Part shown: positions 30,668 to 31,234 of the stretch, in pieces | Layout of the letters: the number at the start of each line of letters is the position of its first letter | Numbering within the stretch: position 1 is the first letter of the stretch | From: an uncultured Clostridia bacterium | GTDB taxonomy: Bacteria > Bacillota > Clostridia > Christensenellales > Borkfalkiaceae | NCBI GenBank assembly: GCA_944363045.1 | Contig: CALVTT010000005.1 | Coordinates: forward strand, 1 to 58,079 | DNA: 58,079 nucleotides | Reading direction: 5' to 3' | Position numbers and translations under genes: made by a program | Notes under the pieces: model-generated | The model's input: the letters and a program-made list of their open reading frames with translations, nothing else | Told to the model about the DNA's origin: nothing | Databases searched by the model: none

Positions 30668-30696
30668 ATTATACTTCTTTCGGGGGGAAATGTCAA
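30668..30696 (-). promoter_or_regulatory. Consensus promoter of the acyltransferase gene
   Basis: On the minus strand TTGACA (30691-30696), 17 bases, TATAAT (30668-30673): a 12 of 12 sigma-A match. The leader is only about 13 bases. Confidence 0.9.
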
Positions 30697-30782
30697 GAAA
30701 ATCGCAAAGCGGGGCCTATGATGCGCAAACGAGGGCGAAGTAGGGCGGCGGGGCACGAAATAAATTTTGAAATTCGGCATTT

Positions 30783-30789
30783 TTCGACA
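30783..30789 (-). promoter_or_regulatory. Candidate Spo0A (0A) box
   Basis: The plus strand reads TTCGACA; the minus strand gives TTTTTGTCGAAAAATG, containing the 0A core TGTCGAA with the usual T- and A-rich flanks. It lies 52 bases upstream of the -35 of the Spo0A-C-like gene and in the divergent control region with the acyltransferase gene. Confidence 0.6.
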
Positions 30790-30826
30790 AAAATCGTGCA
30801 AATTTGCGCCGCTTCCCGTAGATATT

Positions 30827-30848
30827 ATTGTAAAAAATACTTTACAAT
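30827..30848. promoter_or_regulatory. Operator-like inverted repeat over the -35
   Basis: ATTGTAAA-AAATAC-TTTACAAT is a perfect 8-bp-arm inverted repeat; its right arm contains the -35 TTTACA, so a bound protein would block RNA polymerase. Confidence 0.55.
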
Positions 30849-30869
30849 CAAAAGACGATATTTTATAAT
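30841..30869 (+). promoter_or_regulatory. Promoter of the Spo0A-C-like gene
   Basis: TTTACA (30841-30846), 17 bases, TATAAT (30864-30869). Leader about 35 bases with AGGAGGT. Confidence 0.85.
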
Positions 30870-30911
30870 TTTAATCACGAAGACAGAACGGATAGGAGGT
30901 AATGGAAAATT

Positions 30912-31184
30912 ATGGAAAAGGCGGAACGGGAAAAATTTTCCGGACGTCTCTTTGCGCTCGGGATCAAACCGCACCTGAAGGGATATGCGTACCTTCTGAC
31001 CGGGGCGGGGCTTTGCGCTGCTTCGGGGAGAGCGCCTTCGGCAGAGGAACTTTCTGCCGCGTGCGGCGTTTCCGGCGAGCATATGGCGCGCGTGCTTGAA
31101 ATGTGCGTACGGCTCTCCGCGCAGCGCACGGGCAGCGGCTTCAAGGATGCGGCAGAGCTCATGCGCGCCGTCGCAGAGGGCTGA
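30912..31184 (+). CDS. Stand-alone Spo0A C-terminal-like DNA-binding protein
   Basis: The 90-residue protein aligns by eye with the DNA-binding (sigma-A-contacting) domain of Spo0A: LFALGIKPHLKGYAYLLTGAG corresponds to [20 protein letters not shown], and ACGVSGEHMARVLEMCVRLSAQR to the recognition-helix region. There is no receiver domain. At positions that contact DNA in Spo0A, one Arg (R214 equivalent) is kept but R211, R217 and H218 equivalents are His, Glu and Met, so specificity may differ. AGGAGGT ends 11 bases before the ATG. It has its own promoter with an inverted repeat and a 0A-like box upstream. Role unknown; a regulator or competitor in sporulation control is a hypothesis. Confidence 0.68.
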   Translation: MEKAEREKFSGRLFALGIKPHLKGYAYLLTGAGLCAASGRAPSAEELSAACGVSGEHMARVLEMCVRLSAQRTGSGFKDAAELMRAVAEG

Positions 31185-31201: not shown

Positions 31202-31234
31202 GCGGGCGCCGCGGCAGTTAGCCGCGGCGCCCGC
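31202..31234. terminator. Bidirectional terminator
   Basis: Perfect 14-bp arms (GCGGGCGCCGCGGC and complement) around AGTTA. It is flanked by TCGCTTTTCT on the plus side and ATTTTATTTT on the minus side, so it serves both convergent genes. Confidence 0.9.

Follow-up and report, generated by a model that had tools for sequence, protein, structure and literature searches.

The locus described here raises the question of what a protein that resembles just the DNA-binding domain of Spo0A does in the cell, and what controls it. Spo0A decides sporulation in spore-formers, and its known negative regulators mostly act on the phosphorelay. Within the window, i.e., the whole 58,079-nt stretch of DNA analysed, one ORF of 90 aa contains the sequence LGIKPHLKGYAYL (Table 1). 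The stop-to-stop frame of 93 codons (92-113 in the five orthologues) leaves no room for a receiver domain with a phospho-acceptor Asp. Since the gene has its own promoter and is followed by a hairpin of 14 G-C pairs, it is probably transcribed as a single-gene unit; terminator-like sites numbered two, as compared to 1.4 expected in shuffles. The next gene, in convergent orientation, codes for a NUDIX hydrolase, with apparent purA, dapF and pyrG-type genes beyond it, and we read the neighbours as housekeeping genes from their predicted products.

Table 1. Coordinates of the features discussed in the text (window positions unless a locus is named)
Feature	Position	Strand	Remarks
Receiver-less, diverged Spo0A_C-like protein, 90 aa	30912..31184 (stop codon included; ATG at 30912)	+	Recognized by ORF, predicted fold, profile comparison and dN/dS
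Ribosome-binding site AGGAGGT	30894..30900	+	11 bases before ATG
Sigma-A-type promoter TTTACA-17-TATAAT	30841..30869	+	11/12 consensus bases; both hexamers invariant in 6/6 loci
Tandem 0A boxes TTCGGCA-TTT-TTCGACA	30773..30789	.	10-bp period; second box is TGTCGAA on the minus strand (30783-30789); at most one mismatch in 6/6 loci
Interval from box end to -35	30790..30840	+	51 bp, length identical in 6/6 loci; central 39 bp just 42% identical
Exact inverted repeat ATTGTAAA-6-TTTACAAT	30827..30848	+	Left arm not conserved
Conserved element AAAATACTTTACAAT, containing the -35	30834..30848	+	Exact in 5/6 genomes, one mismatch in G027
GC stem-loop, 14 bp, terminator-like on both strands	31202..31234	.	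Between the 90-aa gene and the convergent NUDIX gene; 14 G-C pairs
Divergent neighbour, GNAT-like protein, 374 aa	29524..30648	-	Acetyltransf_1 14.6 bits, below cut-off; adjoins the gene in 6/6 loci
Promoter of the GNAT-like gene, TTGACA-17-TATAAT	30668..30696	-	12/12 consensus bases
Two near-identical receiver-less Spo0A_C genes, 119 aa (genome G099, same genus)	L148:3096-3455, L149:3193-3552	-	1-1.5 kb from contig ends

An earlier note on this DNA had taken the protein for a relative of the Spo0A DNA-binding domain and had proposed a search with the Pfam profile Spo0A_C (PF08769) and a structure prediction as checks. The first of these fails as named, the profile giving a score of 13.6 bits (E 0.068) over residues 13-36 only against a cut-off of 25, and homology had to be established by stronger methods. 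Three of the five orthologues likewise scored below the threshold (17.5, 15.0, and 12.6 bits), two had no Spo0A_C match, and a phmmer search of the PDB sequences with the window protein returned three weak matches, with no Spo0A among them. The structure prediction came out in favour of the proposal. An AlphaFold model of the window protein, computed with four orthologues (mean pLDDT 93.4, pTM 0.84), was compared by Foldseek to 350,542 PDB chains; the seven effector-domain chains of Spo0A in entries 1LQ1 and 1FC3 took ranks 1-7, with a probability of 1.00 and TM values of 0.65-0.80 by query length, and the next match reached 0.51. A second model, in which the G035 orthologue led six rows (mean pLDDT 92.6, pTM 0.83), retrieved the same seven chains on top, with TM values of 0.75-0.81 and 21-25% sequence identity. 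The Foldseek E values of these chains were 0.006-0.11 over the two models, and no match of any kind came down to 0.001, so that the weight of the comparison rests on rank and TM. Alignment of the six orthologues to 19 Spo0A domains of the genus by hhalign gave a probability of 96.2 and an E value of 2.5e-9 over 68 columns, both profiles being shallow. When used to search the family, the six-orthologue profile matched Spo0A in 96 further genomes with E values of 2e-7 to 1e-5; these Spo0A proteins were judged full-length by their open frames, apart from two frames <200 aa (G050, G134) that end at contig ends. By predicted fold and profile-level descent, the 90-aa protein is a member of the Spo0A_C superfamily despite its sub-cut-off Pfam score, as the earlier note had supposed. 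It shares with the Spo0A effector domain the fold (TM 0.65-0.81, seven chains, two models) and an LGI.PH.KGY.YL core, but differs from Spo0A in lacking the receiver, in the replacement of helix positions 211, 217, and 218, and in shorter segments around the recognition helix.

Among the structural neighbours that follow Spo0A are WhiB7/sigma-A region 4 as well as sigma factors, and the top Pfam match of orthologue L006 is Sigma70_r3 (20.9 bits, E 4e-4; cut-off 25.3). Such matches, together with the retention of the GNAT-like neighbour in all six loci and with helix residues which are replaced but invariant and thus suggest a protein surface, would fit a small Spo0A-controlled protein whose partner is something other than Spo0A, such as sigma-A region 4, a kinase, or the pathway of the GNAT-like gene. 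The sigma matches, however, are explained by the generic resemblance of helix-turn-helix proteins, and we consider a partner of this kind rather unlikely.

The short protein is present in six of 103 genomes of its genus, the same six being the only ones among 398 genomes of the family, and in one of 396 genomes of an evenly drawn, order-wide sample, the own genome counted (E limit 1e-7). When a tree was built from the neighbour protein, using as its 30 rows the loci retrieved out of 48 matching genomes, the six carriers formed one clade with a support of 100/100; the neighbour protein is 88-94% identical among them and 79% identical in the next genome. Since a full-length Spo0A scoring above the Pfam cut-off and SpoIVA are encoded in all six, the carriers are probably spore-formers. 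The dN/dS ratios of the short gene, 0.23-0.53 in 15/15 pairs (rough values, several dS being >1), make it look like a working gene under purifying selection, yet a fast-changing one: in the same six genomes, mean pN/pS is 0.57 for the short protein, whereas the neighbour has 0.13 and Spo0A_C just 0.02. This fast evolution and the narrow spread (6/103 genomes) might be thought to indicate a decaying, functionless remnant. We regard that as very improbable, considering that the frame is open in 6/6 orthologues, that dN/dS is below one in every pair, and that the promoter hexamers are invariant and the spacing of the box is fixed.

The residues R/K211, E213, R214, R217, and H218 are taken here to include the DNA contacts of Spo0A. 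In the hhalign register, R211 (K in the genus), E213, R214, R217, and H218 correspond to H57, A59, R60, E63, and M64 of the window protein. The earlier note had counted three differing contact positions, and H, A, and E indeed stand for R/K211, E213, and R217 in this protein. Across the six orthologues, position 211 is H and position 218 is M throughout, position 213 is A, V, R, E, E, E (E in three of the six), position 214 is R in five and C in G035, and position 217 is E, D, E, E, W, W; the set of residues taken to read 0A boxes is thus not retained by the short family. H57, M64, C65, and L68 are invariant, as if the helix had acquired a new job. The 20-residue helix carries a net charge of +1 in the window protein and of -1, 0, -4 (G035), -1, and -1 in the other orthologues, versus +2 in Spo0A of the same genome; charge alone is not decisive on whether 0A boxes are read. 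The recognition helix of full-length Spo0A, KVERAIRHAIE, was unchanged in 28/28 Spo0A proteins of the genus that were read (from 30 loci retrieved out of 86 matching genomes; the pattern missed two of the loci).

According to PMC3485338, the contacts of Spo0A with DNA have been mapped, bases G2, C4, and G5 being read, and the DNA-binding domain, when isolated from the rest of Spo0A, does not need phosphorylation to bind. The earlier note had supposed that the protein could compete with Spo0A at TGTCGAA or extend its action; on this view it would be a phosphorylation-independent DNA-binding domain, as suggested for truncated Spo0A of phages. Residues R214 (5/6) and E213 (3/6) and the net charge of +1 of the window helix agree with this, whereas the replacement of R/K211, R217, and H218 in 6/6 orthologues, the C at position 214 of G035, and the shortened surroundings of the recognition helix do not; moreover, the fully readable domains on viral contigs keep all five positions. 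The supposition found no support, and we give it little credence. Competition of the 90-aa protein for 0A boxes appears unlikely from these comparisons, because positions 211, 217, and 218 are replaced in all six orthologues, yet kept in those Spo0A proteins of the genus that were read and in the fully readable domains of viral contigs.

Receiver-less Spo0A has been published for gut phages in PMC10294663, where 29 virome sequences are aligned. Among 30 viral loci, 21 of which were read first and then nine partial ones, all five helix positions were kept in 28/28 fully readable cases. The first 21 showed R/K, E/D, R, R, H without exception, in seven distinct 12-residue helices; seven of the nine partial loci were fully readable and intact (7/7), and L199 and L200, which show four positions and one position, respectively, were also unchanged. 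The viral contigs were scanned with two peptide patterns, and one of these contains H218-E221, which biases the set toward intact helices, but not with respect to positions 211-217. In 15 of the 21 loci the frame is complete from stop to stop and measures 126-199 aa, which leaves no room for both receiver and effector; the frames of L177 and L178 exceed 310 aa, and four others end at contig ends. Upstream of the 15 complete short frames, every tandem 0A site has at least four mismatches. The 90-aa protein resembles the phage-borne truncated Spo0A (PMC10294663) in being an effector domain without receiver; it is unlike the viral forms read here, with their intact helices, in being chromosomal and worn, in its tandem 0A box, and in its apparent housekeeping neighbours. 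Relatives of the short family were found in neither viral contigs nor phage or plasmid records, and the window protein had no match in PHROG at E values up to 1, whereas a canonical domain used as query (that of G099, see below) matched 13 phage records. On these grounds, the idea that the short form came from a phage or a plasmid was rejected.

Genome G099 of the same genus contains two receiver-less Spo0A_C genes of another type (Table 1). The 119-aa protein scored 127.1 bits against Spo0A_C (one copy scored) and has an intact recognition helix. Each copy is preceded by TTCGACG-GGA-TTCGACA and TTTACA-17-TATAAT, with a distance from box to -35 of 71 bp (51 + 20); the tandem was reached by 0/2000 shuffles. 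Among the matches listed for this domain in 398 family genomes (E to about 2e-43), no further close copy was found: the match that follows has 67% identity and lies within a 280-aa frame, and the listed frames <200 aa outside G099 (G050, G134, G042) end at contig ends. The G099 copies are like the window gene in lacking the receiver, in having tandem 0A boxes upstream, and in the TTTACA-17-TATAAT promoter; they are unlike it in their canonical Spo0A_C domain, the intact helix, and their other genomic places. Judging from these sequences, either receiver-less Spo0A under tandem 0A boxes arose at least twice in the genus, or the short family is an ancient, worn representative of this type. Receiver-less Spo0A as such is already known from phages; what seems new is the chromosomal, 0A-box-bearing version with a worn helix, which was not found in the literature covered, most subscription journals lying outside this coverage. 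The short family with its replaced helix, the G099 genes, and the viral genes, both with intact helices, form a ready series for testing the roles of receiver-less Spo0A.

In the promoter of the short gene, the earlier note had pointed to a TGTCGAA core 52 bases upstream of the -35. The motif is there, at 51 bases, and forms one half of a tandem pair; taken alone it is at chance level, the window containing 12 copies versus a shuffle mean of 8.06, with 8/100 shuffles reaching 12, and the lone motif was discarded as evidence. The tandem pair is different: when the 263-bp intergenic region was shuffled by mononucleotides, 0/2000 shuffles arrived at one mismatch. Over the whole window, two sites fit the tandem if two mismatches are allowed, versus 0.39 expected, and 4/100 shuffles reach that number. 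The other five loci have TTCGACA-N3-(T/A)TCGACA. In the six genomes, the tandem TTCGACANNNWTCGACA occurs at 21 sites with at most one mismatch, versus five for the reversed pattern; six sites are perfect, five of them upstream of the short gene and the sixth, in G001, where the same contig begins. The tandem of the window has its one mismatch in the first box and ties with two other sites of the window genome. A third box, TTCGAC, starts 20 bp past the second in three of the six genomes and is absent from the window.

Identity averages 88% in the boxes and 100% in both hexamers, as compared to 42% in the centre of the spacer (27-31% after a shift by 1-2 bp), the near-identical pair G062-G075 being left out of these averages. 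Because the interval of 51 bp is fixed in 6/6 loci while the other distances vary (64-76 bp from the box to the divergent -35, 21-40 bp from the -10 to ATG), the boxes appear tied to the promoter of the short gene. A tandem box with at most one mismatch is present in 6/6 carriers versus 0/24 non-carriers (24 examined of 42 with the same neighbour gene). Assignment of the box to the divergent GNAT-like gene is disfavoured by the 24/24 non-carriers and by the varying distance, but the non-carriers G040, G015, and G061 have a two-mismatch tandem near the neighbour gene, which 0/60 shuffles reached. The short gene carries 0A boxes in its promoter, as expected of a member of the Spo0A regulon, and the tandem box is better read as a candidate site for full-length Spo0A, the recognition helix of which is the same in all Spo0A proteins of the genus that were read. 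Upstream of spo0A itself, neither TTCGACA nor TGTCGAA occurs within 300 bp in any of the six genomes (counted from the first Met of the frame as the start), and the best tandem has 3-5 mismatches; consequently, spo0A provides no positive control within these genomes and does not help the claim of a working Spo0A site.

The earlier note had also described a palindrome around the -35 as a possible autoregulatory operator, and had proposed conservation of gene, box, and palindrome in relatives as a check. Gene and tandem box are conserved in all six genomes, but the palindrome is not: although the exact repeat is present in the window, its left arm ATTGTAAA was not found in the five relatives (nearest in G001, with 6/8 bases), and the right arm coincides with the -35 region. 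The exact palindrome sequence occurred in none of 100 shuffles, whereas perfect inverted repeats with 8-bp arms, whatever their sequence, and spacers of 0-10 number 37 in the window, overlaps within longer stems being counted separately. With the left arm not conserved and such repeats common, the palindrome is probably not an operator.

What is conserved at the -35 is AAAATACTTTACAA, invariant in the six promoters (30834-30848 in the window) and exceeding what a -35 requires. The corresponding element AAAATACTTTACAAT is invariant in 6/6 in all but its last base and reaches 7 bp above the -35. It could be a site for the short protein itself, if the latter were a DNA-binding regulator of new specificity whose altered helix reads another sequence, perhaps this one by way of autoregulation, with Spo0A setting the timing only. 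The helix-turn-helix fold is kept in the predicted models, and H57 and M64, both new to the helix, do not vary among the six orthologues. Exact matches to it in the six genomes are, however, confined to the promoter of the short gene, with two one-mismatch sites elsewhere, so that as a regulon element it was discarded and a single-site regulon is the most that could be supposed; besides, positions 213, 214, and 217 vary and the helix of G035 has a net charge of -4 while the element stays fixed. We therefore consider a regulator of new specificity unlikely.

Our tentative preference is that the gene codes for a receiver-less, strongly diverged paralogue of the Spo0A effector domain, which would act as a microProtein-like, Spo0A-controlled modulator through protein contact. 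Full-length Spo0A~P would bind the tandem box upstream of the short gene, activation being likelier than repression because the box sits upstream of the -35. The resulting protein would no longer read 0A boxes, but would keep the Spo0A core LGIKPHLKGYxYLL and act by protein contact, its likeliest partner being the effector domain of Spo0A or the transcription complex formed by it. The outcome would be a damped or retuned Spo0A response, Spo0A in effect making a microProtein that exerts negative feedback on Spo0A itself. If this is true, a self-derived, Spo0A-controlled relic of the effector domain would add a further layer of control at the DNA-binding step.

Id proteins are an analogue of such a microProtein-type reading, beside those of plants. 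Plant and animal microProteins, according to PMC4807768, are small single-domain derivatives of multi-domain regulators which coexist with the parent, as does the 90-aa protein, and they sequester the parent protein; for the 90-aa protein such sequestration is a proposal. That the analogy extends to a bacterial microProtein in the full sense, in which a duplicate effector domain that has lost DNA reading and stands under the tandem operator of the regulator binds this regulator and exerts negative feedback on sporulation entry, seems doubtful to us. The A257V exchange in Spo0A has been suggested to weaken dimerization or the contact with sigma, and L174F and H162R act as its suppressors (PMC9195935). 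By our residue count, L174 falls in the KGYxYL segment, the best conserved one in the short family, and this hints that the surface kept is one tied to effector-domain contacts.

Several points speak against the preferred modulator. The conserved LGIKPHLKGY segment may be a mere folding core, and the fast evolution of the protein (see pN/pS above) is unusual for one locked onto an invariant partner. DNA contact by the 90-aa protein is still conceivable in view of the E213 and R214 residues retained in part of the family and the positive window helix. Activation by Spo0A is not obvious either, the promoter of the short gene being already near consensus.

Tandem 0A-like sites were also observed at other genes of the carriers. 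In the three of the six genomes that were looked at (G000, G062, G001), TTCGACA-N3-ATCGAAA lies 64 bp before the ATG of a gene that we read as luxS-like (L056/L058/L059, about position 1501). A site of the TTCGACA-N3-TTCGAAA type is located upstream of an apparent nitrite/sulfite reductase-type gene (L048, about 1501); L052 and L061 apparently represent the same region, as judged by their flanking ORFs. In G035, TTCGACGGCCTTCGACA is found at L062:1501, about 370 bp before a gene read by us as spoIIAB-like, which is followed by a sigma-F-like gene.
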